Part shown: positions 1-54,972 of the stretch, piece by piece
Layout of the letters: each line of letters opens with the position of its first letter
Numbering within the stretch: the first letter of the stretch is position 1
Source of the DNA: Streptomyces sp. NBC_00239
GTDB lineage: Bacteria; Actinomycetota; Actinomycetes; Streptomycetales; Streptomycetaceae
Assembly: GCF_036194065.1 (NCBI RefSeq)
Contig: NZ_CP108095.1
Span: forward strand, 620,001-684,000
Length of the DNA: 64,000 bases
Direction: 5' to 3'
Made by a program: the position numbers and the translations under genes
The notes under the pieces: model-generated
What the model saw: the letters and a program-made list of their open reading frames with translations, nothing else
What the model was told of the DNA's origin: nothing
Database searches by the model: none

Positions 1-115
1 CGACGGTCGCCCGGAGCCGTTTCCGTCCGGTCGCGACAGCGGCGTCGAGCACCGCACCGGCCGCCTCGGCGGCGTAGCCGCGCCCATGTGCGTGCCGGCA
101 CAACTCGCCCGCCCG
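1..115 (-). pseudogene. GNAT acetyltransferase fragment lacking its N-terminus
   Basis: Read on the minus strand, the bases directly after the stop codon of the neighbouring gene encode a stretch with the acetyl-CoA-binding signature HGRGYAAEAAGAVLDAA, followed by a region that continues off the window edge. In a normal GNAT protein this motif lies about 100 residues after the start. Here the frame is closed by that stop codon only a few codons upstream, so the N-terminal half is missing. Either it is a decayed acetyltransferase or it is read from a weak internal TTG start. The rest lies outside the window. Confidence 0.5.
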
Positions 116-955
116 TCACGCCACTCGGAAGACCAGGGCCAGGACCTCCGTCAGGCGCCGCTTCAGCGCCTGTGCGTGCGGCGGGCGCACGGGAGCGGGG
201 GCGCCGTCGATGCGGACGCCGGTGTCGGCGAGAAGGTACAGCATCCGCAGCGTGCGCATGGCGTTGGAGGTCTGCGCGGCCACGGTGGGGGCGCCGCGCC
301 GGCCGGCGGCGAAGTCCGTCTCGATCGCGTCCAGCCAGCCGACGGCCTCGGCCTCGGAGAGTTCCGGCCGCGTGAGCGTGCGGGCGACGCCCTGGGCGAG
401 CCGGTCGTCCTCCTGCTGGGCGAAGAGCGCGTCGGTCGGCGCCACGAGCCGCTGCGCCGCCAGCGCGAGCATCCCCTTCGGGTCGACCTCCGGATGGAGT
501 CCGAAGGTGCCCAGCAGGTCGGCGCCGTGCGCGACGGCGTGGAGCCAGCCGAGCCGGGGATCGTACCCGCGCACGTCCGTCTCGGCCGGGAACCAGCGCC
601 GGAAGGCGGCGAGCCACGCCGGGTCGAAGTCGCCGCGACCGACGATCATGTCGAGCACGAGCGGGGCGAAGGTGCGCGCCTGGATCTCGGGATGGTCGAA
701 CCGGTCGGCCATCACGGCGCCCAGCCGGGCGCGCAGCGGCCCGTCGATGACGTCCCGCTGGATCCACGTCCGCAGCACCACGTACGGAGCGCCGTCGCGG
801 ATGTCCGGGTCGGGGTGGCGGAGGGCCTCGGCCAGTTCGGCGGCGAGGGCGGGCAGTTCGGCCGCCGCCGGGGCGGGGCAGTCGTTCTCGTAGAGGTACA
901 GCCAGCGGGCCGCGTCGATCGGCGGCCTGTCGTCGTCGGTTTTGATCACTGCCAC
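116..955 (-). CDS. DUF2785-like protein
   Basis: This encodes a 279-residue soluble protein with no signal peptide and no membrane segment. It is rich in Ala, Leu and Arg and looks all-helical. The stretch GYDPRLGWLHAVAHGADLL near residue 130 resembles the conserved core of the uncharacterised DUF2785 family, recalled from memory. Its function is unknown. It stands alone, with about 125 bases separating it from the VOC gene upstream on the same strand. The ATG at 955 begins MAVIKTDDD and is the natural start. Confidence 0.65.
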   Translation of the reverse strand: MAVIKTDDDRPPIDAARWLYLYENDCPAPAAAELPALAAELAEALRHPDPDIRDGAPYVVLRTWIQRDVIDGPLRARLGAVMADRFDHPEIQARTFAPLVLDMIVGRGDFDPAWLAAFRRWFPAETDVRGYDPRLGWLHAVAHGADLLGTFGLHPEVDPKGMLALAAQRLVAPTDALFAQQEDDRLAQGVARTLTRPELSEAEAVGWLDAIETDFAAGRRGAPTVAAQTSNAMRTLRMLYLLADTGVRIDGAPAPVRPPHAQALKRRLTEVLALVFRVA

Positions 956-1080
956 ACCTTCGGGGAGGCACCCCGACCGGGCAACCGATTATCGGACGGA
1001 TGCGCGGCGGGCAGGCGGTCGGGGCCGGCGGGCCGACCGCCTGCCGCGTGGAGGCGTAAGGGTGTTGTCGCGGCTCCGGG

Positions 1081-1818
1081 TCAGCGCGGGGTGAGGAGGC
1101 AGAATTCGTTGCCCTCCGGGTCGCCGAGGACGGTCCACGGCACGTCGCCCTGTCCGAGGTCGACGTCGGTGGCGCCGAGCGCGCGCAGCCGGTCCGCCTC
1201 GGCCGCGTGGTCGTCACCGAGGTACGGGCGGAGGTCGAGATGGATGCGGTTCTTGACGGTCTTCGCGTCGGGTGAACGCAGGAACTCAAGGTACGGGCCG
1301 ACGCCCTTGGCGGAGCGCAGCACCGCTTGGTCGTCGGTCACCTCGTGCAGGGTCCAGTCCATCGCCTCGCCCCAGAACCGGGCCATGGCCCGCGGATCCG
1401 CGCAGTCGACCACCACCGCGGCCATCGGCCCGGTGTCCCGGTAGATCTCCCGGGGTTCCAGTACGCAGAACTCGTTGCCCTCGGGGTCGGCGAGGACCGT
1501 CCAGGGGACGTCACCCTGGCCGATGTCGACGGGCGTCGCTCCGAGGGCCTGGACGCGCGCCACCAGCTCGGCCTGATGGGCCGCGGAGGTGGTGGCGAGA
1601 TCGATGTGCACACGGTTCTTGACCGTCTTGGGTTCCGGGACGCGCAGGACGTCGACGAAGACGGCCGCGGGGTCGGGGTAGGCGATGCCCACGGGTTCGA
1701 TGTTGGTCACGCCGGGCCCCTCGCTGGACACGCCCCAGCCGAGCACCTCCGCCCAGAACCCACCGACCGCGGAGTCGTCCCGGGCATTCATCGCAATTTG
1801 AACAAGCCGTGTCGCCAT
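1081..1818 (-). CDS. VOC family protein with two glyoxalase-like domains
   Basis: The 245-residue protein is built from two homologous halves of about 120 residues. Each half ends with DPEGNEFC followed by a short hydrophobic strand, the usual end of a glyoxalase/bleomycin-resistance (VOC) repeat. The parallel motifs KTVKNRVHIDL and KTVKNRIHLDL occur in halves one and two. Such tandem proteins fold as one pseudo-dimer, often bind a metal or small hydrophobic ligand, and in Streptomyces mostly lack a known substrate. The ATG at 1818 (MATRLVQIAMNARD) fits the family start better than the upstream in-frame codons beginning at 1860. It appears monocistronic. Confidence 0.85.
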   Translation of the reverse strand: MATRLVQIAMNARDDSAVGGFWAEVLGWGVSSEGPGVTNIEPVGIAYPDPAAVFVDVLRVPEPKTVKNRVHIDLATTSAAHQAELVARVQALGATPVDIGQGDVPWTVLADPEGNEFCVLEPREIYRDTGPMAAVVVDCADPRAMARFWGEAMDWTLHEVTDDQAVLRSAKGVGPYLEFLRSPDAKTVKNRIHLDLRPYLGDDHAAEADRLRALGATDVDLGQGDVPWTVLGDPEGNEFCLLTPR

Positions 1819-2008
1819 GGCGCCGACCCTATGTACACCGTCACGCATCGACAACCGCATTAGAGAGCAGCGCCGTGCCCGTGCCGCGGCCCGGCAGTCG
1901 TGCCGGGCCGCGGAGAGGCCCGCGCCCGGCGGACTCCTACTGGCCGTCGCTTCCCAGGACCGGTTCCGGTCCTCGGAGGGGAGGGCGCGGGCGGCGGACG
2001 CCGGAGGC

Positions 2009-2671
2009 CTACGGGACGAGCGCGGCGGGTTCCGCGAGCCGGGCGGCGGCCGTGCGCCAGGCTGCGGTCACCGCGGTGCGGGCCCGTTCGGTCAGGGCGG
2101 CCTCGTCCGCCGTCGGCTCGAGCGGTTCGCCCACGTGCACGTGGAGTTCGGGGCGGCGCAGCGGTGCCGTGCACAGGCCCAGGACCTGCTTGGTCGTGCT
2201 GCCCGAGGTGACCCGGCGGGCGCCGGCCTGGCCCACGGGCACCACGGGAGCCCCGGTTCGCTGCACGAGCCGGGACAAGCCGCTGCGGAAGGTCCCGGGC
2301 GCCGCTTCCGCGGCGTCCACTCGGTCCGGGAGACCGCCCTCCGCGTAGATCAGCACCAGGCGTCCGCGTTCGATCGCCTCGGCGGCGCCGTCCAGGGCGT
2401 TCGCCGCGCGCCGGTCGCCGCGGTGGACGGGGATGTGCCCTTCCCGGGCGAGCGCCCGGCCCAGGGCCGGGACGCGCCACAGTCCGGCGGTCGCCATGAC
2501 CACCGGACGTACCCCGAGGCGGTGCAGGGCGGCCAGCACGATCGCGGGGTCGGCGAGCGAGGTGTGGTTCGCGGCGACGACGCTGCCCGGGGCGAGTTCG
2601 GCGCCCGCGTCGGTGGTGATCGTGAGGCGCCCGAACGCGGGCACCAGGACGTCGGCGAGGCGGCTCAGCAC
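2009..2671 (-). CDS. PlsC-like 1-acylglycerol-3-phosphate acyltransferase family protein
   Basis: The approximately 220-residue protein carries the acyltransferase signature NHTSLADP (the HX4D active-site block) near residue 35 of the chosen product. It also has a second block, YAEGGLPD, in the place of the usual EG(T)R block. Family members transfer an acyl chain from acyl-ACP or acyl-CoA to a lysophospholipid or another hydroxyl acceptor at the membrane. The GTG at 2671 is preceded by GGGAGAA at a good distance. A TTG at 2695 is possible but has no clear ribosome site. It lies 112 bases downstream of the DUF5825-like gene on the same strand, so it could belong to the peptide operon, but a separate promoter is equally possible. 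Confidence 0.75.
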   Translation of the reverse strand: MLSRLADVLVPAFGRLTITTDAGAELAPGSVVAANHTSLADPAIVLAALHRLGVRPVVMATAGLWRVPALGRALAREGHIPVHRGDRRAANALDGAAEAIERGRLVLIYAEGGLPDRVDAAEAAPGTFRSGLSRLVQRTGAPVVPVGQAGARRVTSGSTTKQVLGLCTAPLRRPELHVHVGEPLEPTADEAALTERARTAVTAAWRTAAARLAEPAALVP

Positions 2672-2783
2672 GGTTCGTTCTCCCGAGCTCGACAATGTTG
2701 ATGTTCATCGTCGCCCGCGGGAGCCCCGGAGACCTGAGTACGCGCGCGCATCTTTCACGGCCGGTACCCAGGGGCGGCGGGGG

Positions 2784-3443
2784 TCAGATCACCAGGGGGG
2801 CTTCCGACCAGCGGCGGACCCGGTACGGGGCCCACCACAGGTGGTCGCCGAAGCGGAGGACGAGGGTCTCGGCCATGAGGTCGTCCAGGATCGGCCGCGG
2901 GATCGCGTCGGTGCGGGCGCCGTCGGTGAGGGCTTCGATGGCCTCGTGGTACTCCGGTTCGTCGATGGTGAAGCGGCGCAGTTCGCCGTAGCGCCGGTCG
3001 CGGACCTGGATGAACCCGGGGCCGTACCGGAAGACGCATTTGCAGATGTAGTACGCGTTGCGCCACGCGAGGGCCGTCGCGGCCGGGTCGGCGGTGCCGA
3101 GGACGGCGGTCGGCGGGTGGAGGTGGCCGTAGTGCCGCCAGGCGTCCGGGTCCGGGCCGGTGTGGATCTGCCAGTCGACCGAGATGGCCAGGCTGGACAG
3201 GTCGCCCACGAAGCTCAGCGCCCGGACCGACCAGGCCGCGTCGGCGGTGTCCGTGACGTCGACAGGCCGCGGGAGGGTGACGTGCCGGGCTCCGGCGGCG
3301 AAGAGCCGCCGCGCGGCCTCGCCGCCGGTGATGTCGATCTCGTAGCGGCCCAGGGACATGGCGGGCAGCGTGCCGACCGCGGGGTCGTAGTCCCGGGAGG
3401 CGGTCACGAGGAAGGGTGCGGTGCCGGTGAGTGCTGGGGTCAT
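2784..3443 (-). CDS. DUF5825-like protein of the RiPP operon
   Basis: This is a 219-residue soluble protein of unknown biochemical role. It contains WQIHTGPDPDAWRHYGHLHPP and a Cys pair within YYICKCVFRYGPGFIQVRD. From memory it matches the uncharacterised DUF5825 family, which I associate with radical-SAM C-methyltransferases of peptide clusters. It starts 24 bases after the stop of the radical-SAM gene on the same strand, so the two are almost certainly co-transcribed. A partner or peptide-binding role for the methyltransferase is the simplest guess. The ATG at 3443 gives the full family-like length. Confidence 0.7.
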   Translation of the reverse strand: MTPALTGTAPFLVTASRDYDPAVGTLPAMSLGRYEIDITGGEAARRLFAAGARHVTLPRPVDVTDTADAAWSVRALSFVGDLSSLAISVDWQIHTGPDPDAWRHYGHLHPPTAVLGTADPAATALAWRNAYYICKCVFRYGPGFIQVRDRRYGELRRFTIDEPEYHEAIEALTDGARTDAIPRPILDDLMAETLVLRFGDHLWWAPYRVRRWSEAPLVI

Positions 3444-3467
3444 CGTCGTCTCTCTGTCGGGCGGTCG

Positions 3468-5369
3468 TCAGGCCGTCGTCGCGGCGAGTTCGGTGTCGCG
3501 GGCAGAGGTGTGCCGCATGAAGTCGATCCGCAGGAACTCCTCGTTGAGCGCGGGCGGCGCGATCTGCACGAACTGCCCGCTGTCCTCGAAGACCAGCCCG
3601 AGCTCCCGCCACCGCTTGAGGACCTCCCGCAGGGCCTCCTCGCCCACCTGGTGGTCCCCGCCCAGCTTGCGGGTGGCCGCCTTCACGGTGTGCGGCTGGT
3701 CGAGCAGCCGGAACAGGGCCAGTTCGAACGGGTCGGTCAGTTCCAGGTACGTCCAGTCGAAGGCCCGGCGCTTGCTGACCAGGACGATCCGGTCCTCCAG
3801 GTCGCAGTGTGTGAGGCGGCTGCCGGGGTAGTTCCGCTTCCAGCGCGAGAGGCCCCGGTCGAGGCGCTTGACGACGTCCTCGCCGATCCCGCGCGGCGGC
3901 ACGTCGAAGACGTAGGCGAGGTCGAACATCTCGGCCTCGGGAAGGTCGTAGGTGAGCCGGTACGGCTGGGCGGGGCGCAGCTCGGAGAAGCCGAGCTCGG
4001 GCTTGTTGAAGTACGGGCTGAACCGCTCGATCGCGATCCGGGAGGACGCGCCGACGGGCGGGTTGAGGTGTTCCAGGGCGGCCAGTTGGGCCACCACGTC
4101 GTCGTAGTCCTCGGCGTCCTCGCCGGGGAAGCCGTGCAGGTAGTTCCAGGCCACCGAGAGGCCGACGGTGGCGGCGTCGCGGAGCATGCGGACGTTCTGG
4201 CCGCCGGTCACACCCTTGTCCATCAGGGTCAGCACCCGGCTGTTGAGGTTCTCGATGCCGGGCTGGACGAAGATCAGGCCGGCATCGGCGAGGGTCTGGA
4301 GCTGTCCCCGGCGCATGTTGGACTTGATCTCGATGTGCATCCGCAGGTCGAACCCGCTGTCGATGATGCGCGGGAGCACCGTGTTCACGTACCCCATGTC
4401 CAGGATGTTGTCGACGACGTACATGTCCAGGATCCGGTGCTTGCGGGCCAGTTCGATGATCTCGTCGTAGAACACGTCCGGGCTCTTGCTGCGGAACTCC
4501 ATGAACGAGCCGTTCAGCCCGCAGAAGGTGCAGTGGTGCTTCTCGCCCCACCAGCAGCCGCGCGCGCCCTCGACGACCAGCTTGGGCTCGACCCAGTTCC
4601 GCGCGTGGGAGGCGGCGAGCCGCTCGAAGTACCCGGAGTAGTCCGGCGGCAGGATCGAGGCGGGCGGCAGCGGCTTGGTGCTCATGGCGTTGACCACGGA
4701 GGCGCCGTCCGCGCCGCGCCAGCACAGCCCGGGTACGTCGGACAGCGCCTCGCCGGCGTCCAGTGCGCTGAGCAGCGCAGGGAACGACACCTCGCCCTCG
4801 CCGCGCAGGACGTAGTCGACGAAGGGGAAGTTGCGGTGGACGGCTTCGCCCTGCTTGCCGTCGCAGTTGGCGCCGCCCATGGCCGTCGCGATGTGCGGGG
4901 CGAGGCGCTTGACGTACTTGGCGGCGGCCAGGGCGGCGGTGTTCTGCTGGAAGGTCGAGGTGAAGCCGACCACGTCCGGGGCGAGTTCGACGATGCGCTC
5001 GGCGATGTGCCGGACGAAATCGGGCGCGGTCACGTGCAGCGCCTTCGTCATCTCCATCCGTTCCCCGCGCACCTGGCTTTTCATCGCTTCGGTGAACTCG
5101 GGAACCCGCCACTGGGGGTCGTCGTAAAGGGCGGAGGAGAACACCCAGTCGCCGCATCCCAGGAAATATGAGCCGAGCGCGTAGTAGGAGTAGTCCTCCA
5201 GGGTGAATTCCGTGTTCTTGGTGATCCAGTCCACGTATTCGATATTGGCGTGGAGAACGTCCGCTGTGGCGTCCGGGACGCGTTCGTCGACACTGCGCTT
5301 GAGAATTCCGAGAGCCAGCGACGGAAGGTCGATCGGGGCCCAGGGCATGTTCACCAGGAGTACGCGCAC
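3468..5369 (-). CDS. RiPP maturation B12-binding radical SAM C-methyltransferase
   Basis: The 633-residue enzyme has an N-terminal Rossmann-like cobalamin-binding region (from VLLVNMPWAP at residue 3 to about 200) and a radical SAM domain. The iron-sulfur motif near residues 270-285 is GCWWGEKHHCTFCGLN. The spacing of the three Cys (C-x7-C-x2-C) is the variant I associate with the ribosomal-peptide-maturation radical SAM family 1. Such enzymes are predicted to methylate unactivated carbons of a precursor peptide, using methylcobalamin and SAM. A C-terminal region of about 150 residues includes a winged-helix-like segment (ELALFRLLDQPHTVKAATRK) that may bind the peptide. The start is a GTG at 5369. 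The gene lies between the short precursor gene and the DUF5825-like gene. Confidence 0.9.
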   Translation of the reverse strand: MRVLLVNMPWAPIDLPSLALGILKRSVDERVPDATADVLHANIEYVDWITKNTEFTLEDYSYYALGSYFLGCGDWVFSSALYDDPQWRVPEFTEAMKSQVRGERMEMTKALHVTAPDFVRHIAERIVELAPDVVGFTSTFQQNTAALAAAKYVKRLAPHIATAMGGANCDGKQGEAVHRNFPFVDYVLRGEGEVSFPALLSALDAGEALSDVPGLCWRGADGASVVNAMSTKPLPPASILPPDYSGYFERLAASHARNWVEPKLVVEGARGCWWGEKHHCTFCGLNGSFMEFRSKSPDVFYDEIIELARKHRILDMYVVDNILDMGYVNTVLPRIIDSGFDLRMHIEIKSNMRRGQLQTLADAGLIFVQPGIENLNSRVLTLMDKGVTGGQNVRMLRDAATVGLSVAWNYLHGFPGEDAEDYDDVVAQLAALEHLNPPVGASSRIAIERFSPYFNKPELGFSELRPAQPYRLTYDLPEAEMFDLAYVFDVPPRGIGEDVVKRLDRGLSRWKRNYPGSRLTHCDLEDRIVLVSKRRAFDWTYLELTDPFELALFRLLDQPHTVKAATRKLGGDHQVGEEALREVLKRWRELGLVFEDSGQFVQIAPPALNEEFLRIDFMRHTSARDTELAATTA

Positions 5370-5551
5370 GGCTGGCCTCTTCTCATGTGATCAATGCGTC
5401 GTCAATGCACGGAGCCGGTCATGTGCCGGACGGCAGTCGGGCGTCTGCCGGACGGCTGGCGGGCGGCCGGGTGTCGGGCTTCCGGCCGGGTGCGGTCGGC
5501 CGGTGTGATCGGGGCCGGTCACGCACGAGGTGCGGGGCCGGCCCCTTGGCA

Positions 5552-5671
5552 CTACTTGTCCTCGTCCTCCATCTCTTCCGTGGAACGGAGGTAGATGACG
5601 ACGCCGACGCCCGGCTTGCGGCTCTCCTCGTCGCCCTCGAGCGGGTCGCCGTGGATGATGTCCTTCTGCAT
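5552..5671 (-). CDS. Putative RiPP precursor peptide, 39 residues
   Basis: A 39-codon ORF begins with ATG at 5671, preceded by a very strong ribosome site (GAGGAGGTGA), and starts five bases after the stop codon of the S9 peptidase gene. Residues 1-18 are an acidic leader-like part (MQKDIIHGDPLEGDEESR). Residues 19-30 are a hydrophobic, uncharged centre (KPGVGVVIYLRS). Residues 31-39 are an acidic tail (TEEMEDEDK). Pro20 immediately precedes the Val/Ile/Tyr-rich centre. The arrangement (acidic flank, methylatable Val/Ile core, acidic follower) and the adjacent C-methyltransferase argue that this is the substrate. No known peptide was recognised, and product, modification sites and cleavage sites are inferred. 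Confidence 0.8.
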   Translation of the reverse strand: MQKDIIHGDPLEGDEESRKPGVGVVIYLRSTEEMEDEDK

Positions 5672-5676
5672 GTTGT

Positions 5677-5689
5677 TCACCTCCTCTCC
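5677..5689 (-). promoter_or_regulatory. Strong ribosome binding site of the precursor gene
   Basis: On the minus strand the sequence reads GGAGAGGAGGTGA and contains the stop codon of the S9 peptidase gene. The precursor ATG follows five bases later. The near-perfect Shine-Dalgarno match predicts much stronger translation of the small peptide than of the neighbouring enzymes, which suits a precursor. Confidence 0.75.
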
Positions 5690-7548
5690 GGCTGCGGGGA
5701 CGGCTCGGCCTGCGCGGGCGCCGGAGGCAGCCCGCGGCCGAGAAATCTGAGGGACCGCCGGATCACGGCCATGTGGTCGGCCCCGTCGTAGCCGTCGTGG
5801 CCCGAGTCCAGCCACATCAGCTCGTGGGCCACACCGCCCGCGCGCAGCACGTCCAGGTACGCCTCGACCTGTTCGGGCGGGCACTTGGCGTCCCGCCGCG
5901 CGGCGACGACCAGCAGCGGGGAGCGGATGGCGGCCGCGTACGTGGACGGGGAGGCGTGCGCGTAGGCCTCGGGCACCTCGTCCGGTGTGCCGCCGAACAG
6001 TGCGGTGTCCAGCGCCTGGAGGGCGGGCGTGGAGTGCCGGAAGGCCGTGACGCAGTCGGCGAGCGGCTTGACGGCCACCCCTGCGTTCCACAGGTCGGGG
6101 CGGGTTCCCATGGCCAGCAGCGTCAGGTAGCCGCCCCACGACGTGCCGCACAGGCCGACGGCGCCCTCGCGGCCGATGCCCCGTTCCAGGAGTTCGGCCC
6201 GGGCCCGTGCCAGGTCGGCGACCTGGGTGTGGCCGACGCCCTCGGAGAAGGCGGCGCGCCAGCGCGGCCCGTAGCCGGTCGAGCCCCGGTAGTTGACGCG
6301 GGCCACGGCGTAACCCGAACCGACGAGGGCCTGCACCATGGGGTCGTAGGCGTCGCGGTCGTGGTCGGCCGGGCCGCCGTGGACGAGGAAGACCAGCGGG
6401 TGCGGGGCGGGACGGTCGGCGGGTGTGGTGACGAAGGTGTGCACCGGTCCGTCGGGCCCGGGCGTCCACAGGTCCTGGCGGTGGCCGAACCGGGGCAGGC
6501 GCCACTGGCTCTGCCCGGGCAGCTGCCCGCCCGACAGGGACAGCGCGCGCGGCACGTTCACCGCGTCGGTCCAGATGAAGTGCACGTCGCCGTCGGCGGC
6601 CGGTGAGGCGTCCAGGATGCTGCCCTCCGGGGTGGGCACCGGGGTCAGCTCGCGGCGGTCGAGGTCGGCGGTGAACAGCCGGCTGCGGCCGTGCCGGTCC
6701 TGCCGGAGCAGGACCCGCGGGCCGCCCGCGCCGGGGTACCAGCGGGCGGTCGTCTCGGTGTCGAACGAGCACCAGGGCAGCAGCTCCAGTCCGCGGCCGG
6801 GGGCCCAGGTGCCGAGGTGGTAGCGGCCGGCCCGCTCGCGCATCACCAGCAGGAGGGTGCTGCCGGGCGCCGGAGCGGGGGACGCCGCCGGACCGGGTGA
6901 GGACGCGGCGGGCAACGACCCTGCGGGCAGCGGCGCGTGCCCGGGCGCGAAGCCGAGGGCCCAGGTGCGTTCCGTGGTGCCGGAGAGCACCGCGACGGTG
7001 GTTCCGTCCGGGGCCAGCAGGGTGACGGCGCGGGCGGAGTGCGCGGGTCCGGACACCGCCAGCAGCCCGCCGTCCGGCGCCAGGTCGCACAGCGTGCCGG
7101 AATCCGTCGTGTGGAAGACGGGTGTGCCGGTGCCGCCGCGCCGTCCCATGTGGACGCTGAGTCCCTCCGGGCTGCGGATGCCGACGGCCACCGGGCCGCC
7201 GTCCGTCAGCGCCAGTCCGGCGGGCCGCCCGTACGGCAGGCCGGCGAGCGCCGGACGGTCCGGGCCGCCGTCGAAGGGCTGGGTGCGCCAGGCGCCACTG
7301 CCGCCGCGGTCCTCGTCGAACCACCAGACGGCGTCGTCGGCGTCGATGGCGCACAGCAGGGTGCCGTGCGGGCGGTCCGTCAACTGCCGTCCGGTGCCGG
7401 TGGAGCGGTCCCACGTGAAGATCTCGCAGCGGCCCTCCGCGTCCCCGGTGTAGACCATCCGGTCCGGGTTGCGGGGGCTGGTCACCGGCAGCACCGGCCG
7501 GTAGACGCCGTAGGTGCGCGGGGCCGCCTTCGGCGGGGCCGGGGTCAC
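5677..7548 (-). CDS. S9 family prolyl oligopeptidase-type peptidase
   Basis: The 623-residue enzyme has an N-terminal beta-propeller region and a C-terminal alpha/beta-hydrolase domain. Visible catalytic elements are the nucleophile elbow GTSWGG (Ser near 468), an Asp in ARRDAKCPPEQ near 552 and a His in DSGHDGYDG near 583. Family members cleave short peptides after proline or other residues. Its GTG start at 7548 overlaps the stop of the MFS gene (GTGA), and its own stop lies within the ribosome site of the precursor gene, so it is translationally linked to both. This makes it the best candidate for removing the leader of the precursor, perhaps after Pro20. No signal peptide is seen, so it should act in the cytoplasm. 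Confidence 0.88.
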   Translation of the reverse strand: MTPAPPKAAPRTYGVYRPVLPVTSPRNPDRMVYTGDAEGRCEIFTWDRSTGTGRQLTDRPHGTLLCAIDADDAVWWFDEDRGGSGAWRTQPFDGGPDRPALAGLPYGRPAGLALTDGGPVAVGIRSPEGLSVHMGRRGGTGTPVFHTTDSGTLCDLAPDGGLLAVSGPAHSARAVTLLAPDGTTVAVLSGTTERTWALGFAPGHAPLPAGSLPAASSPGPAASPAPAPGSTLLLVMRERAGRYHLGTWAPGRGLELLPWCSFDTETTARWYPGAGGPRVLLRQDRHGRSRLFTADLDRRELTPVPTPEGSILDASPAADGDVHFIWTDAVNVPRALSLSGGQLPGQSQWRLPRFGHRQDLWTPGPDGPVHTFVTTPADRPAPHPLVFLVHGGPADHDRDAYDPMVQALVGSGYAVARVNYRGSTGYGPRWRAAFSEGVGHTQVADLARARAELLERGIGREGAVGLCGTSWGGYLTLLAMGTRPDLWNAGVAVKPLADCVTAFRHSTPALQALDTALFGGTPDEVPEAYAHASPSTYAAAIRSPLLVVAARRDAKCPPEQVEAYLDVLRAGGVAHELMWLDSGHDGYDGADHMAVIRRSLRFLGRGLPPAPAQAEPSPQPERR

Positions 7549-8801
7549 GGCGCCTCCCGGACCACGAGCCCGGCCCGGACGGTCGCGTACAGCGCGAGGC
7601 CGGCGAACGCGCCCGCACAGCCCAACGCCACCGTACGGCCCCCGTACGCCGCGACCAGCACGCCTGCCGCCACCGGCGCGAGCACCGCGACGCCCTGGCC
7701 GGCGGTGCCCAGTACCGTCCCCATCCGGGCCAGCAGCCGGTCGGGGGTGACCAGCACCGCCCGGGTCTGCAGCACCACCACCACAGACGGCACGATCAGC
7801 GACACCCCGCTCAGCAGCAGCCCGTACACCCACGTGCGGGACGCGAACGCGAGCCCGGCCGCCGTCGGCACCATGGCCCACGAGGCGGCCGTCACGATCC
7901 GCGCGGCCGGCACCCGCCGTACGAGCCACGGCGCGGCGAGCGAGCCCAGCAGGCCCCCGACGCCCGCCAGGGTGAGGATGAGCCCGATCGAGGAGGGGCT
8001 GGCGCCCTGCGCGTGGGAGGCGAACACCGCGTGGAAGTACAGCGCGCCGAGCAGTGCGTTGATCCCTGCGGTCCACACCACCACGAAGCGCAGGAAGGGC
8101 TCGGCGCACACGAAGCGCAGCCCTTCGGCGAGGTCACGGGTGAAGGAGGCGGCCGGACCCTCCCGTTCGGGTGTCAGGTCCGCGCGGATCGCCTTGGTCA
8201 ACACCGCCACCAGCAGGAACGAGGCCGCGTCCGCGAGCAGTGGCACCCACCGCGCCAGCTGGTACAGCACGCCGCCCAGGGTCGGCCCGACGATCTGCAC
8301 CGCCTGGTCGCGGGCCTGTAGATATCCGATCGCCCGGGCGTACCCGTCGGGCGGCACCAGCCGCCGGATGGTCCCGGAGGCCGCCGCGCCGTAGGCGGCG
8401 CTTGCCGCCTGCTCGACCACGGCCGCGGCCAGCACGTGGACGAGGACGACGTGACCGAGGGCCACGGCCGCGAACACCGATCCCATGGCGCCCGCCGCGA
8501 CCAGGGCCGCCGTGTACATCATCGGCTTGCGCGGCCACCGGTCGGCGAACACGCCCGCGACCGGTGAGACCACCAGTCCGCTGACCAGTGCGACCGACGC
8601 GACGAGTCCGGCGAGCCCGGCCGAATGTCCGGCGCCCAGCAGGATCAGCGGAAGAAAGAGGGAGGACGCGCAGGTGCCGAGACCGTCGACGGCGCCCGCC
8701 GCCCAGAAGAGCGAGAAATCACGTATTCGGAACGGAGACGAGGGCGGTGCTTTCGATAATTCAGGGCCGGAGGGTCTTAACTTCTCCTCGGCCTCGCCCA
8801 T
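7545..8801 (-). CDS. MFS transporter, probable exporter of the RiPP product
   Basis: This 418-residue major facilitator protein has multiple hydrophobic segments and the typical loop motif FADRWPRK between helices two and three. It is the first gene of the minus-strand peptide operon and overlaps the peptidase gene by four bases. The ATG at 8801 is preferred over the adjacent TTG at 8804. Codons 8 and 15 are both TTA, the rare leucine codon read by the bldA tRNA in Streptomyces. Translation of this leading gene, and through coupling the peptidase, could therefore be limited to late growth. Export of the mature peptide is inferred from context. Confidence 0.85.
   Translation of the reverse strand: MGEAEEKLRPSGPELSKAPPSSPFRIRDFSLFWAAGAVDGLGTCASSLFLPLILLGAGHSAGLAGLVASVALVSGLVVSPVAGVFADRWPRKPMMYTAALVAAGAMGSVFAAVALGHVVLVHVLAAAVVEQAASAAYGAAASGTIRRLVPPDGYARAIGYLQARDQAVQIVGPTLGGVLYQLARWVPLLADAASFLLVAVLTKAIRADLTPEREGPAASFTRDLAEGLRFVCAEPFLRFVVVWTAGINALLGALYFHAVFASHAQGASPSSIGLILTLAGVGGLLGSLAAPWLVRRVPAARIVTAASWAMVPTAAGLAFASRTWVYGLLLSGVSLIVPSVVVVLQTRAVLVTPDRLLARMGTVLGTAGQGVAVLAPVAAGVLVAAYGGRTVALGCAGAFAGLALYATVRAGLVVREAP
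8757..8780 (-). other. Two TTA leucine codons at the start of the operon-leading MFS gene
   Basis: The in-frame TTA codons are at 8780-8778 (codon 8) and 8759-8757 (codon 15). A scan of all called genes in this window found only one other in-frame TTA, in ramR. In Streptomyces such codons are normally read by the tRNA encoded by bldA, which accumulates late in development. Confidence 0.85.
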
Positions 8802-8889
8802 CAACTATCCCGCCCGGAGGGAATTGCCGACGCGAACGCACCCACAATGCCCCCTGTAATAGGCGGACTTACGGTTGTTGAGGGTTGCG

Positions 8890-8918
8890 ATCGTAGCGAA
8901 CACGTACACCCGTCACAA
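8890..8918 (-). promoter_or_regulatory. Candidate promoter of the RiPP operon
   Basis: On the minus strand there is TTGTGA (8918-8913), a 17-base spacer and TACGAT (8895-8890), a fair match to a vegetative sigma-factor promoter. It would give a leader of roughly 80 bases before the MFS start at 8801. The surrounding 8805-8965 region is visibly richer in A and T than the rest of the window. This is a pattern match only. Confidence 0.4.
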
Positions 8919-8984
8919 CACCCACGTTCGAATGGGGTTCCTGATCAAGGAATGGGTTTTTTTGAGGGCGCCCGCGCAACCGGC

Positions 8985-9341
8985 TCAGGCGTAGCGGCGC
9001 TGCGGACCGCGGACCAGGCCGGCCTCGGTTTCAGTGAGGTGGGGATCCCCCAGCCGCCGCTCGGTGGCGACCGGCATGCCCGTGCGCGGGTCGGTCCCGC
9101 AGGAGCGGGCCACGGCCCGCAGGAAGCCCCGGATCAGCAGCCGCTCGTGCGGTCGCAGCACGATGCCGCGGAGGATGACGAAGGTCATGGCCACATCGAC
9201 CTCGGGGCGGCCGACGCGGGCGGTGGTCCAGTCGATGGCCCTCGGACCGCGGTCCGTGAGGATGACGTTCTCCGGGTGCAGGTCGAGGTGCAGCAGGCGC
9301 TGCCACCTGGCTCTCCTTCCGGCTCCGCTCCCACTGACCAC
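8985..9341 (-). pseudogene. C-terminal remnant of an APH-type phosphotransferase
   Basis: The translated stretch includes LLHLDLHPENVILTDRGP followed by AIDWTTARVGRPEVDVA. These are the catalytic loop (HxDxxxxN) and the metal-binding IDW block of aminoglycoside-phosphotransferase/homoserine-kinase-like enzymes. In intact members about 180 residues, including the nucleotide-binding lobe, precede this point. Here the frame opens only 16 codons upstream, and the space up to lpdA holds a terminator instead. It is best read as a decayed gene whose product would lack ATP-binding elements. Confidence 0.6.
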
Positions 9342-9351
9342 CGGGCGAAGC

Positions 9352-9401
9352 GGGGCCGGCCGGTTGCGCTCGCACCGTGCGGCGGGAGCGCGGCCGGCCC
9401 C
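9352..9401 (-). terminator. Probable terminator of lpdA
   Basis: An 11-base perfect inverted repeat, GGGGCCGGCCG (9352-9362) and CGGCCGGCCCC (9391-9401), encloses a 28-base loop about 26 bases past the lpdA stop codon. There is no T-run, as is common for actinobacterial terminators. Confidence 0.55.
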
Positions 9402-9426
9402 GGAAGAGCGGGGTTCGGGAAGGGAA

Positions 9427-10830
<1,404 letters not shown>

Positions 10831-11005
10831 GCGACTTCCTTAGCGTGGGAGCGGCGAGCGGCTGGGCAGGGCGTTCGGCACCCGTCCCGACGTGCCGCTG
10901 CGGTGAACGAGTGCGAGCGTAATCTCCCGTGTCCAGGCCGTGCCACAGGTGTTCGGACGCGCCGAAGGCCCCTCCGTCCCGTTCGAGCGAGGGGCGGGGC
11001 GGGGT

Positions 11006-11045
11006 GGGCCGATGTCGCGCACGCCACCGTGCGCGACATCGGCCC
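11006..11045 (-). terminator. Perfect 18-bp inverted repeat downstream of the reductase gene
   Basis: The arms GGGCCGATGTCGCGCACG (11006-11023) and their exact complement (11028-11045) flank a CCAC loop. It lies 51 bases past the stop of the minus-strand reductase gene and about 180 bases upstream of lpdA, so it most likely ends the reductase transcript. No T-run follows. Confidence 0.65.
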
Positions 11046-11095
11046 CCCGCACGTCTTGCGCGGGGCCGGACGGCCCCGGCGTCTCGGGGCGCGCT

Positions 11096-11740
11096 TCAGT
11101 CCGCGCGCCCGGTACCGCGATCGGGCGCGCTCATGTCCCCGGTCGCGGGCGTGCCGTCGGCGAGCCCGTAGCGCAGGTACACCGCGCCCTTCGGGCCGGC
11201 CGCCGGCGGTTCGAGGAGCGTGAGGTTCGTGGGAACCGCGCCCTGGTCGAACACCTTCTTCCCGGTGCCGAGCACGATCGGGTACACCCAGAGGTCGAGG
11301 CGGTCGAAGAGCTTCTCGCGCAGGAGGCTCTGCACCAGGTTCAGACTCCCGACGACCTTCACGTGCTCGTGCCGGTCACGGACCTCGCGCACCGCGCGCG
11401 CCAGATCCGGGCCGAGGTGCGTGGACCCGGCCCACGAGAGGTCGGGCGTGCCGCGGGAGGCCACGTACTTCGGGACGCCGTTGAAGAGCGTGGCGATCTC
11501 GTTGTCCTCGCCGCCCTCCTGGTGCGGCCAGTAGGCGGCGAAGATGTCGTACGTCCGCCGGCCCAGGAGGAGGGCGTCCGTGCCCTCGTACGCGGCGCCG
11601 ATCTGCTCCCCTGCCGCCTCGTCCAGCAGGGGCGCCTGCCAGCCGCCGAACGGGAAACCCGCCGGGTCCTCGTCGGGGCCGCCGGGCGCCTGCCCGACGA
11701 GGTCGAGGGTGGCGAACAGCTCGATGTGGATCATGCCCAA
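11096..11740 (-). CDS. Dihydrofolate reductase / RibD C-terminal family protein
   Basis: This 214-residue NADPH-dependent reductase-like protein is of the RibD C-terminal type. It carries IHIELFATLDLVGQ at the N-terminus, GRRTYDIFAAYWP near residue 65 and KVVGSLNLVQSLL near residue 130, which are the usual core strands and the NADPH-contact region. Streptomyces carry many such paralogues with unknown substrates. A true folate role is unlikely because the family name reflects fold only. The TTG at 11740 has GAGGAG six bases upstream. The ATG at 11734 is the alternative and removes two residues. Confidence 0.8.
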   Translation of the reverse strand: MGMIHIELFATLDLVGQAPGGPDEDPAGFPFGGWQAPLLDEAAGEQIGAAYEGTDALLLGRRTYDIFAAYWPHQEGGEDNEIATLFNGVPKYVASRGTPDLSWAGSTHLGPDLARAVREVRDRHEHVKVVGSLNLVQSLLREKLFDRLDLWVYPIVLGTGKKVFDQGAVPTNLTLLEPPAAGPKGAVYLRYGLADGTPATGDMSAPDRGTGRAD

Positions 11741-11792
11741 GGCATACTCCTCATGAGTGGGTGGTCCCCCGGTTCGTCCGGCCCGGCGCGGG

Positions 11793-12101
11793 TCAGCCGA
11801 GGCGCTCCTGGTCCTGGATGTCGCAGTCGGTGTAGACCGTCGGCCGGGTCATGAGCGCCGAGAGCTGCCGGGCCAGTTCGCCGGTCTCGGGCGCGTCGCT
11901 GTTGGCCATGGCCGTCTCGTACGAGTCGAACTCGACCACGGCCAGGTAGCGGTTGGGGTTGGCCCGGTCCTTGAGCAGGGAACGGGCGGCGGGGGCACCC
12001 GTCCGGCCCTGCGAGCGGGCCTGCTCCTCGTACGCGCGCAGAAGCTCGCGCACCTCGTCGATGCGCTCGGTCTCGAAATCGATGATCTGCGCGAACTTCA
12101 T
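11793..12101 (-). CDS. Small ferredoxin-like fold protein, possible monooxygenase-type dimer
   Basis: The 102-residue cytoplasmic protein MKFAQIIDFETERIDEVREL... has the strand-helix pattern of dimeric alpha/beta-barrel proteins. The segment NRYLAVVEFDSYETAMANSD resembles the central strand of antibiotic-biosynthesis-monooxygenase-like proteins. No catalytic residue can be named. The ATG at 12101 has AGGAGG upstream. It is followed, some 52 bases on, by the start of the reductase-like gene on the same strand, so the two may be co-transcribed. Confidence 0.7.
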   Translation of the reverse strand: MKFAQIIDFETERIDEVRELLRAYEEQARSQGRTGAPAARSLLKDRANPNRYLAVVEFDSYETAMANSDAPETGELARQLSALMTRPTVYTDCDIQDQERLG

Positions 12102-12264
12102 GTGCCGGCTCCTCCTGGCGCGGGCGGCCCACGGCGCGGGCCGGCCTCCTGCCGCCAGCAAACACCGCCGCGCCCGCCACCCCGGGCTCACACGCCGTCG
12201 TCGCGACGATTCCGCGAGCCTGGCAGACGGCCGGCTGCGAACGGGCACCCGATAGGTTGCAGCC

Positions 12265-12813
12265 ATGACTGAACTCGGACACGTCACCTGGCCGACTGCC
12301 CCGATAAGGACCGAACGGCTCGTGCTCCGCGAGTCCGAGGCCCGGGACCGCGCGGCGTTCATCGAGCTGTTCTCCTCGCCGGACGTGCACACGTACCTCG
12401 GAGGCCCTCGGCCTCGTGCCGAACTCGAACGCGCGGTGCCCGAGGTGCCCGGCCGGCGCCCCGGCGTCTTCGTGATCGATCTCGACGGAGCGATGATCGG
12501 CACGGTCTCGCTCGATCGGCGCGACGCGGAGCGTCCGGGGCACGTCCTTCCGGATGTGGGGGAGGTCGAACTCGGCTACATGCTCCTGCCGCACGCGTGG
12601 GGACGCGGGTACGCCGCCGAAGCGTGCGCGGCGGCGCTCGACTGGTGCGCCGCCGCGCTGCCCGGCGAGCCGGTGGTGCTCTGCACCCAGACGGCCAACG
12701 ACCGCTCGATGCGCCTCGCGGTGAAGCTGGGGTTCACCGAGGTGGAGCGGTTCGAGGAGTACGGCGCCGAGCAGTGGTTCGGCGTGCGGCCCGCCGGCAC
12801 GCCGTCCGGTTGA
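12265..12813 (+). CDS. GNAT family N-acetyltransferase, RimJ/RimL type
   Basis: This 182-residue acetyltransferase has IRTERLVLRESEARD at the start, a beta-strand pair around VFVIDLDGAMIGTVSLDRR, and the acetyl-CoA pyrophosphate-binding loop HAWGRGYAAEACAAALDW near residue 112. NDRSMRLAVKLGFTEVERF at the C-terminus is the typical RimJ/RimL ending. Substrates could be protein N-termini or small amines. It converges with the CMD-family gene downstream and diverges from the small monooxygenase-like gene. Confidence 0.88.
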   Translation: MTELGHVTWPTAPIRTERLVLRESEARDRAAFIELFSSPDVHTYLGGPRPRAELERAVPEVPGRRPGVFVIDLDGAMIGTVSLDRRDAERPGHVLPDVGEVELGYMLLPHAWGRGYAAEACAAALDWCAAALPGEPVVLCTQTANDRSMRLAVKLGFTEVERFEEYGAEQWFGVRPAGTPSG

Positions 12814-12858
12814 GCCCCCGGATCGGTTCGGGCGGGCGGGCCGCAGGCGGATGTCGGG

Positions 12859-13350
12859 TCAGTCCCACTGCTCGTCGGCGAGGGAGGTGACCGGCTGGGG
12901 CTTGCCGATGACGGCCACCGCGATGAAGAAGTTGATCTGGCCGATCGCGATCGTGAGGGTGGCGAGCGCCTTGTCGTCGTAGTGCTTCGCCACCTCCGCG
13001 TACAGCTCGTCCCCGACCCGCTCCCGGCCGTGCGGGGCCGGCTGGAGGGTCGCCTCCACCAGGGCGAGCGCGGCGCGTTCGGCGTCGGTGAAGTACGGGG
13101 CGTCCTGCCAGGAGGAGACCGCGGTGATGCGCTCCTCGGACTCCCCCGCCTTGCGCAGGAAAGCGGTGTTGAGAACGGTCAGGTAGGTGTTGCCGACGAT
13201 CTGCCCGGCACGCAGGTGCACCAGGCTCATCGTGGCGCGCGGCACGGAACGGTTCCCGGTGGCGCGGAAGAGCGCCGCGCTGATGTCGTTCAGCTCCGGA
13301 ACGAACTCGCCCGGGTTCGGCATCCGCGAGATGGGGGTGCTGTGCGTCAT
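12859..13350 (-). CDS. Carboxymuconolactone decarboxylase family protein
   Basis: The 163-residue protein resembles AhpD/CMD proteins (MPNPGEFVPELNDISAALFR, then SLVHLRAGQIVGNTYLTVL). The active-site position, which in peroxidase-active AhpD reads CxxC, is occupied here by residues without Cys. A peroxiredoxin-reductase role is therefore unlikely, and it should be placed among CMD proteins of unknown function. The ATG at 13350 has AAGGAGAG upstream, and the in-frame extension to 13428 has no support. Confidence 0.8.
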   Translation of the reverse strand: MTHSTPISRMPNPGEFVPELNDISAALFRATGNRSVPRATMSLVHLRAGQIVGNTYLTVLNTAFLRKAGESEERITAVSSWQDAPYFTDAERAALALVEATLQPAPHGRERVGDELYAEVAKHYDDKALATLTIAIGQINFFIAVAVIGKPQPVTSLADEQWD

Positions 13351-13578
13351 GGCTGCTGCTCTCCTTCGGTCGGCCTGATCGGCGCCTTCACAGCACTGAC
13401 GGACCGGGCGCGGAGAGTGTGACGGCACGCGGAGACTCTTTTTCCGCGTCGTTCAGGGGAGTGCGATGGCGGCGTCGAGGCCGGCCGCGGGCCTCAGCAG
13501 CACGCCCCGGGCCGGAAGTTGACAACGTTTCAGCTTCAGTGGGCCGGAAATGTGGCCGAAAGACTTCCAGCATGCTGC

Positions 13579-13600
13579 GACATGTGAAATTTTACATGTC
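13579..13600 (+). promoter_or_regulatory. AT-rich palindrome upstream of the collagenase gene
   Basis: Arms GACATGT (13579-13585) and ACATGTC (13594-13600) flank GAAATTTT. Twenty of 22 positions are symmetric and the site is much richer in A/T than its surroundings. It lies 59 bases before the collagenase start and looks like a repressor operator or promoter element. The region 13351-13658 otherwise shows no gene. Confidence 0.5.
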
Positions 13601-13658
13601 ACACGTCAACGCTTCGTGTCCCCAGCACGCGGCACAACGGCCCCGGAGGCCCCCACAG

Positions 13659-15998
13659 ATGCATCCGTTCCGGATATCGAAGGCCAACGCGCAGAGACTT
13701 CCGGCGCTCGGCGCGGCCGTCTTCATCACGCTCGGCCTGTTCACGCCACCGAGCCAGGCCGCCTCCGCCGGCGCCACGGCCCCTGCCCCGGCGGGCTCGA
13801 ACGCACGAGCAGCCGCGGCCTCGGCGCCGCGGTCGATCCCGGTCCCCAAGTCGCCCGATGCGATGAGCAACGGCTCCCGTTTCCGGATCTCCTCGCAGGA
13901 CAGTGCCGAGGAGTCCGCCCCGGCGCCCGCCCCCGCCGTCAAGCCCGTCAAGCCCACCAAGGGCTCCAAGCAGTCCACGGCGGCCGCCGCCGACGAGTGC
14001 GGCGACCTCTCCGGCGTGATCAACGCCTCGGGCAGCGCACTGGTCCAGCAGCTCAAGGCCCTCCCCCGGATCACCTGTACGTACCCGCTGTTCAACCTCA
14101 CCGGTGACAACGCCCGCAAGGCCTTCCGCGAACCCCAGATGGTGACCGTCGCCAACGCGCTGCGCGACGCCTCCGCCACCTACTCGGGCGGCAACAGCGC
14201 CGCCATCGGGCAGCTGGTGCTGTTCCTGCGCGCCGGCTACTACGTGCAGGACAACAACGCGGACGTCGTCGGCGACTACGGCACCGCGCTGGACGGCGCG
14301 GCCCGCGGCGCGCTGGACGCCTTCTTCGCCTCCCCGCGCAGCAAGGACGTCACCGACGCCAACGGCGAGATCCTCAACGAGGTCGTCACGCTGATCGACA
14401 GCACCCACGCGGCCGGCCGGTACGCCGGCGTCGTCAAGTGGATGCTCGGCAGCTACGACGGCACCTGGCCCGCCCAGATGAACCTCGCCATGCAGCACGT
14501 CGAGTGGGTCGTCGAGAACGGCTTCAAGGCCAAGAACGACGACCGCGGCTGGCGGGCCGCCCTCAAGGCCGACCCCGCCATCCTCACCACCTGGGCCGGC
14601 TTCATCACCCGCAACAGCGCGCAGCTGAACCGCCTTGACGTGGTCAGCAACGTCGGCCGCTTCCTCGGCTACGCCCTCGACGTCCCCGAGCTCAAGGACC
14701 GGGTCCGGCCGCTGCTGAAGGACCTGATCAACCGCTACCCGAACGTCGGCCCCACCGCGCCGATCACCATGAACCTGGGCTGGTACACGCGCCAGTACGA
14801 CAGGAACAACTGCGCGGCCTACGCCATCTGCGACCTGGGCGACCGCGTGCTCCCGGCGATCCTGCCGATCCAGCACACGTGCACCCCGGACCTGAAGATC
14901 CGCGCCCAGGACATGTCCCCCGGACAGCTGGCCGGCACCTGCACCAGCCTGGTCAACCAGGACGCCTACTTCCACCGGGTCATCGGCGACAAGGGCGCGA
15001 TCCCCGGTGACGTGAACACCAACCTGGAGGTCGTCGTCTTCGACGACTACACCCAGTACTCGCTGTACGCCTGGGCCATCTACAACATCGACGTCGACAA
15101 CGGCGGCATGTACGAGGAGGGCAACCCGGCCGCCGCCGGCAACCAGGCCCGCTTCATCGCCCACGAGGCCCACTGGCTGCGCCCGGACTTCCAGATCTGG
15201 AACCTCAACCACGAGTACACCCACTACCTCGACGGCCGCTACAACATGTACGGCGACTTCGACGCGAGCCTGACCACGCCGACCATCTGGTGGGTCGAGG
15301 GCATCGCCGAGAACATCTCGTTCGGCTACCGCAACCAGCGCAACGCCGACGCGATCGCCGAGGCCGACAAGAAGACGTACAGGCTCAGCGAGCTGTTCGA
15401 CACCGTGTACGGCCAGGACGAGGACCCCGAGGTCAACTCGAGCCGGGTCTACCGCTGGGGCTTCCTCGCGGTCCGCTACATGCTCCAGGCGCACCCCGCC
15501 GACGTCCAGACCGTCCTCGGCAAGTACCGCTCCGGTGACTGGAACGGTGCCCGCACCTTCCTGAAGCAGACCATCGGCACCGGCTACGACGCCGGCTTCG
15601 CCACCTGGCTGACGACCGCCTGCGCGACCGACGACTGCGGACCCCTGCCGGAGGCCCCGTCCACCCCGCTGTGCACCATCAGCGACCCCCGCCAGTTCGA
15701 CAAGAACTGCCGCCGGGACAACCTCGCGGCCGCCGCCGGCAACTACAGCTACCACTTCGTGTACCTGCCGGCCGGGCTCAAGGAGCTGACCATCACCAGC
15801 AGCGGCGGCACCGGCAACGCCGACCTGTACTACGGCGGCGGCAGCTGGGCCACCACCGGCAACTACCGGGCGAAGTCCACCAACGCCGGCAACGGCGAGA
15901 CCCTGACGATCGCCGACCCGCCGTCCGGCTGGGTCTACTTCAGCCTCGCCGCCGCGCAGGACTTCAGCGGCGTGAGCGTCTCCACGCAGTCCAAGTGA
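13659..15998 (+). CDS. Secreted M9 family collagenase-type metallopeptidase
   Basis: This 779-residue secreted protease begins with a signal peptide (ALGAAVFITLGLFTPPSQAASA). An N-terminal M9 activator-like domain follows, then a zinc-peptidase domain with HEYTH near residue 518 and the third ligand Glu in WVEGIAEN near 545. The C-terminal pre-peptidase-like beta-sandwich (about 675-779, GGTGNADLYYGGGSW) is common in secreted bacterial proteases and binds collagen or other substrates. The ATG at 13659 gives the signal peptide directly. Upstream in-frame ATGs near 13572 would add an unlikely N-terminal tail and lie within the palindrome region. A convergent response-regulator gene follows after a shared terminator. 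Confidence 0.9.
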   Translation: MHPFRISKANAQRLPALGAAVFITLGLFTPPSQAASAGATAPAPAGSNARAAAASAPRSIPVPKSPDAMSNGSRFRISSQDSAEESAPAPAPAVKPVKPTKGSKQSTAAAADECGDLSGVINASGSALVQQLKALPRITCTYPLFNLTGDNARKAFREPQMVTVANALRDASATYSGGNSAAIGQLVLFLRAGYYVQDNNADVVGDYGTALDGAARGALDAFFASPRSKDVTDANGEILNEVVTLIDSTHAAGRYAGVVKWMLGSYDGTWPAQMNLAMQHVEWVVENGFKAKNDDRGWRAALKADPAILTTWAGFITRNSAQLNRLDVVSNVGRFLGYALDVPELKDRVRPLLKDLINRYPNVGPTAPITMNLGWYTRQYDRNNCAAYAICDLGDRVLPAILPIQHTCTPDLKIRAQDMSPGQLAGTCTSLVNQDAYFHRVIGDKGAIPGDVNTNLEVVVFDDYTQYSLYAWAIYNIDVDNGGMYEEGNPAAAGNQARFIAHEAHWLRPDFQIWNLNHEYTHYLDGRYNMYGDFDASLTTPTIWWVEGIAENISFGYRNQRNADAIAEADKKTYRLSELFDTVYGQDEDPEVNSSRVYRWGFLAVRYMLQAHPADVQTVLGKYRSGDWNGARTFLKQTIGTGYDAGFATWLTTACATDDCGPLPEAPSTPLCTISDPRQFDKNCRRDNLAAAAGNYSYHFVYLPAGLKELTITSSGGTGNADLYYGGGSWATTGNYRAKSTNAGNGETLTIADPPSGWVYFSLAAAQDFSGVSVSTQSK

Positions 15999-44146: not shown

Positions 44147-44224
44147 TGGCCCAACATAGGGAACAACCGGCGCCGCTTGAGGAATGGTGCCTGCCGGGCG
44201 CGCCGCCGGACCTAGGGTGGCGCC

Positions 44225-45088: not shown

Positions 45089-45292
45089 CCGGTCGCGTCC
45101 GCACGGTCGACCGTGCGTTGTCCCGCCGCGTCGGCTCTTCAAGGCGGTTACCCGCCAACGAAAGCGGAATTTACCGGGGTCTCGGCCAAGTTTCGCGTGC
45201 GCCCCTGCGCGCCCCCCGAAGTGACGTTCCATCATCCCCTGCCCGGGGCAGCCGCGTGGTGCTGTTCGTTCGTCTACCGAGGAGAGCGCACG

Positions 45293-49602: not shown

Positions 49603-49628
49603 CGGCGGATGCCTCCAGGGATGGGGTG

Positions 49629-49658
49629 CGGGCCCGGGCGCCTGAGCGCCCGGGCCCG
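49629..49658 (-). terminator. Intercistronic hairpin after ramS
   Basis: A 13-base perfect stem (CGGGCCCGGGCGC at 49629-49641, complement at 49646-49658) with loop CTGA lies 13 bases past the ramS stop and before ramA. It probably works as a partial terminator or RNA-stabilising structure that makes precursor mRNA more abundant than exporter mRNA. Confidence 0.7.
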
Positions 49659-49670
49659 AGGTGACCTAGA

Positions 49671-49807
49671 TCAGTTACAGGTCGTGATGCTCAGGCTGCT
49701 GTCACCGCAGAGCAGCAGGCTGGCCCGGCTGCCGCCGCCACCGCCGTACATCGCGCCCTCGGTGATCTCTTCCTTCGGGGTCTCCATCGACTGGAGGTCA
49801 AGAAGCG

Positions 49808-49811
<4 letters not shown>
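49671..49811 (-). CDS. ramS: SapB precursor peptide RamS (class III lanthipeptide)
   Basis: This 46-residue precursor starts MTLLDLQSMETPKEE, the typical class III leader. It ends with a core reading SRASLLLCGDSSLSITTCN, identical at these residues to S. coelicolor SapB as I recall it. The labionin pattern Ser-x2-Ser-x3-Cys occurs twice (S28-S31-C35 and S38-S41-C45). Five Gly (residues 23-27) form a linker at the leader-core junction. Where S. coelicolor has Thr at the first core position, this peptide has Gly. The ATG overlaps the stop of ramC (ATGA). Confidence 0.96.

Positions 49812-54972
<5,161 letters not shown>

Follow-up and report, generated by a model that had tools for sequence, protein, structure and literature searches.

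A probable clavusporin-type operon in Streptomyces sp. NBC_00239 with a conserved 39-residue precursor peptide

Introduction

On its minus strand, Streptomyces sp. NBC_00239 carries a compact set of five genes, which are, 5' to 3', an MFS protein, an S9 peptidase, a 39-residue peptide, a B12-binding radical SAM enzyme (rSAM) and a DUF5825 protein. They occupy positions 2784–8801 of a 64-kb stretch of the 9.3 Mb genome (G000:C1:620001-684000), and "the window" below means this whole stretch. The locus raises the question of what such a set of genes makes, and whether it represents a new class of ribosomally synthesized and post-translationally modified peptide (RiPP) or one already described. 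Our analysis indicates that the operon is genuine, well conserved and very probably clavusporin-type, that is, of a known class and not a new one.

Results

The 39-residue peptide is real and belongs to a conserved family. A single-sequence search returned three relatives and a profile built from 17 sequences returned 64; the organisms named among these 64 matches were all Streptomyces or Streptomycetaceae, and the named close relatives of the window's peptide and rSAM were Streptomyces. Across 10 window-type orthologues, differences to the window at codon positions 1, 2 and 3 numbered 20, 3 and 40, the pattern that selection on a protein would leave. A chance open reading frame was rejected on the grounds of the conserved family, the conserved place of the gene and this codon-position bias. 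An alternative in-frame GTG at 5680 would make the precursor 42 residues long; since a well-spaced GAGGAGG precedes the ATG at 5671 and the GTG overlaps the S9 stop, 39 residues is the likelier length. The peptide comprises a leader with a conserved QKDII.GDPL, a putative core GVGVVIYL(RS) and an acidic C-terminal part; a ribosomal precursor next to rSAM, DUF5825 and S9 genes is present.

Prediction of open reading frames and family scans located all five of the minus-strand genes that an earlier note on this DNA had described, with the four-base overlap between the MFS and S9 genes and the start of the peptide five bases past the S9 stop both exact. The gene that had been called DUF5825-like encodes a clear-cut DUF5825 protein, its PF19142 score of 240.6 bits lying well above the cut-off of 25. 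The five genes had also been described as one unit, for which the gene order conserved among relatives speaks, but a 182-base gap with a predicted stem-loop splits the peptide gene from that of the rSAM, and for this reason we can only infer a single unit.

The rSAM carries B12 (PF02310) and radical SAM (PF04055) domains and scored 596.1 bits against TIGR03975 (RiPP maturation radical SAM C-methyltransferase), exceeding the curated cut-off of 281.85. Its profile had TokK (7kdx, 5.1e-12) as best match in the PDB, and the CX7CX2C cluster motif was found in 125 of the 125 distinct rSAM homologues compared below. The DUF5825 gene is adjacent, and its product has no convincing sequence relative in the PDB (single match, E 0.15). 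In a passage of PMC12257519, the C-methylation of amino acids during clavusporin biosynthesis is ascribed to a homologous B12-rSAM/DUF5825 pair; a passage of PMC12951456 describes MpcP, a PF00326 protease, as taking off the clavusporin leader. Both papers cite Zhang et al. for clavusporins, and a surfactant role is stated in the title of the cited paper, as given in the reference entry. As these sources describe it, a B12-rSAM/DUF5825 pair with a PF00326 protease is the clavusporin pairing, which overturns the view that the locus fits no known RiPP class (PMC12257519, PMC12951456). The rest of the earlier RiPP operon reading stood: the operon is compact, its rSAM is of the C-methyltransferase type, and a short precursor goes with a putative leader peptidase and an exporter. 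A literature search on related terms gave no other title on this operon among the matches listed.

Among known systems, clavusporins (mpc) share the B12-rSAM and DUF5825 for C-methylation and a leader protease of the POP family, as described in those papers. The window core is shorter than the commoner GITVTVPF type and carries a Tyr (GVGVV[IV]Y[LF]RS); should the clavusporin core be of the Tyr type, the window operon would simply be another copy. Biphenomycin-like YHxYxY clusters likewise have a B12-rSAM/DUF5825 pair, with a second B12-rSAM, beside a RiPP precursor, but according to the description in PMC12257519 they additionally encode an MNIO together with its partner protein, as well as a cross-linking rSAM. 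The MNIO family was assigned to none of the 10 proteins scanned (116–11740 in the window).

We compared the operon across 140 loci, or 125 distinct ones after merging identical rSAMs, window included. They were chosen by a DUF5825 match or by closeness to the window rSAM, and the shares given here are not unbiased rates. For the former, 60 of 76 match rows were fetched, the window itself, a second G185 copy and 14 weak or short matches being excluded; one fetched locus stops before the rSAM and is outside both counts. For the latter, we took the best 80 of 563 relatives. The order MFS-S9-peptide-rSAM-DUF5825 was kept in 90 of the 125 distinct loci, and tblastn placed DUF5825 near the rSAM in 122, many of which had been picked by DUF5825. 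Homologous loci without the short peptide, which the earlier note had said would refute it, were not clearly seen among those with S9 as well as rSAM: the peptide profile matched in 98 of these 102 distinct loci (window included), and the remaining four were two with a divergent peptide MKRRSV[QR]NDP..., read by eye, and two whose interval reads N. Elsewhere a profile-detectable peptide was lacking in 15 of the 125, to which we return below. DUF5825 occurred in 70 of 295 genomes of the genus, our own included (69 over the cut-off), and in six of 396 genomes phylum-wide, the four over the cut-off all belonging to the same genus. The best 80 of the 563 rSAM relatives included four from Micromonospora and one from Streptantibioticus; Streptomyces clavuligerus, guessed from the name to be the clavusporin producer, was not among these 80, which settles nothing.

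Some loci depart from the usual arrangement. L140, L145 and L148 have rSAM-DUF5825 near the window clade, and L159 has it on a long branch of the T-type clade; in all four, S9 and MFS genes were not found by the window probes and the peptides are altered (e.g. MEKDIIHNDPLEEAEDGEYQTGMRLIDIPIPAVRE), so that the same enzymes apparently go with another maturation. In L117 two precursor genes lie ahead of one rSAM, the second having a Ser-rich core SVGVSVSVSRRRN. Streptomyces sp. CBMA291 has two window-type operon copies in one assembly (L097 and L098) with identical rSAM stretch and precursor, which would stem either from duplication, as in a terminal inverted repeat, or from the assembly.

Taking the core as the eight residues that start two after an anchor Arg, 71 of the 78 distinct precursors could be anchored; one more peptide (L159) could not be trimmed. 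Val, Ile or Leu stood at core positions 2, 4, 6 and 8 in 68, 71, 71 and 64 of the 71, respectively, and at positions 1, 3, 5 and 7 in 0, 3, 15 and 2. The alternation score over 39 distinct octamers was 133, a value reached by none of 2000 shuffles (highest 33). That the anchored cores share one Val/Ile/Leu register is a new observation at the level of sequence. From the alternation we infer that the core may be bound in extended, beta-strand form and methylated by the enzyme along one face. The natural core types are GITVTVPF, GVGVV[IV]Y[LF]RS, AVGVG..RF and VTVTVTVKVSF.

In a FastTree tree of the 125 rSAMs, for which only local support values are available and which has long branches elsewhere, the window falls in an 11-row clade (support 99) with cores GVGVV[IV]Y[LF]RS. 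These carry a Tyr and have two residues fewer than the common GITVTVPFRN type. The clade is nested in one of 18 rows (support 96) together with AVGVG..RFRN, GVGVVVRIPFRN and three more divergent cores. The Tyr, at core position 7, is clade-specific, and PMC12257519 includes a description of a B12-rSAM, PbsB, that cross-links aromatic residues; both would be in keeping with an rSAM that cross-links or epimerises rather than methylates, the Tyr taking part. Yet in seven of the 11 clade cores this Tyr is the sole aromatic residue, and the enzyme is over the TIGR03975 C-methyltransferase cut-off and paired with DUF5825, a pair reported, in the passage cited above, to C-methylate, so that we regard such chemistry as very improbable and methylation as the preferred reading.

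The S9 gene encodes a putative leader peptidase with the triad Ser470, Asp553 and His584, which was invariant in 94 of 94 near-complete S9 sequences aligned from the 102 S9-bearing distinct loci. No signal peptide was obvious by eye in the first 40 residues. The residue before the core (putative P1) was Pro in 61 of 71 precursors (KP 51, RP 7, SP 2 and AP 1), Val in eight and Asn in two. The designation of this enzyme as a prolyl peptidase is thus borne out by the S9 family name, but not by a Pro throughout the family at the presumed cut site, as a strictly prolyl-specific peptidase would have, nor by its best PDB matches, which are acylaminoacyl peptidases (1ve6, 1e-26). These relatives and the variable P1 would also suit an S9 and MFS pair with another job, such as detoxification or peptide uptake, with unlinked proteases maturing the peptide, as would L140, L145 and L148, in which peptide, rSAM and DUF5825 occur but the window probes found no S9 or MFS. 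However, the five genes keep one order in most of the distinct loci, the S9 gene here overlaps that of the MFS protein and abuts the peptide, and leader removal in clavusporins is ascribed to MpcP in the passage of PMC12951456; we see only a slim chance that the pair is unrelated to the peptide.

Upstream of the MFS gene, TTGTG and TACG(A/C)T were kept in 11 of 11 aligned orthologues, the comparison being of the window-type clade alone. A strict consensus scan of positions 2500–9500 returned no promoter and no terminator, and did not flag TTGTGA-N17-TACGAT. All 11 window-type operons have a palindrome (11–14 of 14 matches) at positions ranging from -147 to -151 relative to the MFS start; none of the other 83 operons has it at that place, and two of these reach 11/14 elsewhere. 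Base-shuffled controls reached 11 matches in five of 1880 cases. The own genome has 34 sites at one mismatch or fewer, against four for the reversed control pattern. Four sites are exact, and no wider regulon was seen among them, since the three besides the operon's fall, by reading, inside likely coding frames. Folding of seven of the 11 clade members predicted a stem-loop behind the peptide stop in each (z -6.3 to -0.2), three being no better than z -1.7; its sequence differs among relatives and has no U-tract or T-run. Our guess is that it might set the ratio of precursor to enzyme. No Rfam family matched positions 1–14000 at gathering scores. Beside the operon promoter, a short frame at 8985–9341 (-) matches an APH phosphotransferase domain just towards its C-terminus (PF01636 positions 168–212 of 239) and is probably a gene remnant.

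Table 1. Features of the operon and its upstream region (positions in the window).
Feature	Position	Strand	Details
MFS exporter, first operon gene	7545..8801	-	418 aa; PF07690 4.9e-27, PF05977 1.6e-11
S9/prolyl-oligopeptidase-family serine peptidase, putative leader peptidase	5677..7548	-	623 aa; PF00326 1e-32
Precursor peptide MQKDIIHGDPLEGDEESRKPGVGVVIYLRSTEEMEDEDK	5552..5671	-	39 aa; relatives by search and profile
GC-rich predicted stem-loop	5511..5545	-	fold z -2.5; directly behind precursor stop
B12-binding radical SAM, putative C-methyltransferase	3468..5369	-	633 aa; TIGR03975, PF04055, PF02310
DUF5825 partner of rSAM	2784..3443	-	219 aa; PF19142 1.3e-71
Promoter-like element TTGTGA-N17-TACGAT, 5' of MFS gene	8890..8918	-	TTGTG and TACG(A/C)T kept in 11/11 aligned window-type orthologues
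Palindrome TCCTTGATCAGGAA, putative operator	8938..8951	-	clade consensus TTCTTGATCAAGAA

Elsewhere in the window, a class III lanthipeptide cluster at 45938–52483 (-) encodes a RamC-type synthetase (PF25816, 2.9e-81), two ABC transporter genes and a precursor (49671–49811, -) whose core presumably matches SapB. This SapB-type cluster, separated from the operon by about 37 kb between nearest edges, is a putative second surfactant morphogen in the window. SapB has been proposed, in a passage of PMC13380574, as a biosurfactant for aerial hyphae; SapB and AmfS (ram/amf) resemble the product considered here as small hydrophobic exported peptides, but differ in their RamC-type lanthionine synthetase chemistry and ABC exporters. 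A conserved linkage of the two loci was ruled out by distances in other genomes. RamC-like matches (E up to 1e-60) were found in 24 of the 30 operon- or DUF5825-bearing genomes searched, our own included. In 15 others with both on one contig the closest pair, in G293, lay about 0.23 Mb apart and more than 0.5 Mb separated most of them (e.g. 6.17 against 6.83 Mb in G044, and 0.37 against 6.37 Mb in G210), and in eight genomes the two were on different contigs. The window also holds a 743-residue frame at 43085–45316 (-), the C-terminal half of which is type III polyketide (chalcone) synthase-like, with an adjoining FAD-binding oxidoreductase-like gene (41464–42489, -), and an M9 collagenase-family peptidase (13419–15998, +; PF01752 7.7e-104).

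Discussion

Genes, families, conserved order, coding constraint on the peptide, catalytic residues and core register were all computed here. We consider it highly probable that, taken as a whole, they are explained by a clavusporin-type (mpc-like) operon that makes, methylates, trims and exports a peptide amphiphile. The presumed substrate, the 39-residue peptide, would be bound through its conserved QKDII.GDPL leader, and the B12-rSAM with its DUF5825 partner would C-methylate unactivated carbons of the Val/Ile/Leu-rich core. Held as a beta-strand, the core would present V2, V4, I6 and L8 on one face as the likely sites of methylation. Leader removal would fall to the S9 peptidase, whose cut in this strain probably comes after KP to give GVGVVIYLRS..., and export would be the task of the MFS protein. 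The product may be an amphiphile, reducing surface tension and promoting aerial growth. The abstract of Zhang et al. reportedly states that clavusporin peptides lower surface tension, and that their operon is widespread in actinomycetes.

Several points weigh against this explanation. The 15 distinct loci without a profile-detectable peptide are rSAM-DUF5825 loci without S9. The Micromonospora loci L164, L167, L169 and L171 keep S9 and MFS and have precursors that end at the core, which suggests that the system can do without the acidic tail; the tail may just be cleaved off. The register had been seen by eye before it was counted, and the shuffles treat related octamers as independent; the seven of 78 precursors dropped for want of an anchor Arg lie outside the count, although most of them, read by eye, follow the same alternation (e.g. 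VTVTVTVKVSF, Micromonospora). P1 is a residue other than Pro in 10 of the 71 anchored precursors, and the window-type peptide of S. laurentii (P0004) reads RSVGVGVVVY, with no KP and with SV before the core, so that a cut after proline cannot be general. The likeness to clavusporins is drawn from the descriptions of their enzymes in citing papers.

The same machinery could also make a C-methylated exported peptide that serves as a signal or antibiotic, or acts with SapB, and is not a surfactant. The shortened core of the window clade, with Tyr replacing Thr, and its common promoter-like element and palindrome would fit such a role, as would the weaker MFS matches, which include drug-efflux families and are all under their cut-offs (for TIGR00900, 143.8 bits against 319.6). 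On the other hand, the large T-type clade has this leader, core register and acidic tail as well, and a surfactant role is what the title of the cited clavusporin paper states; we therefore hold a signal or antibiotic to be unlikely and favor a surfactant amphiphile. A more specific proposal, which we put forward tentatively and with some doubt, is that the 11-member clade represents a distinct clavusporin sub-type, a short Tyr-bearing beta-strand amphiphile with strict i,i+2 methylation of one face, an acidic tail kept as head group and its own dedicated operator, the register being a general site rule of the rSAM/DUF5825 pair.

Through these results a 39-residue gene that had no annotation joins a class of methylated peptides described only recently, very probably as a well-conserved member. 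With an aliphatic residue at every second position in nearly all of the 71 precursors, the sites of methylation become predictable and testable, and the natural core types are a place to begin probing how much variation the rSAM/DUF5825 pair will accept.

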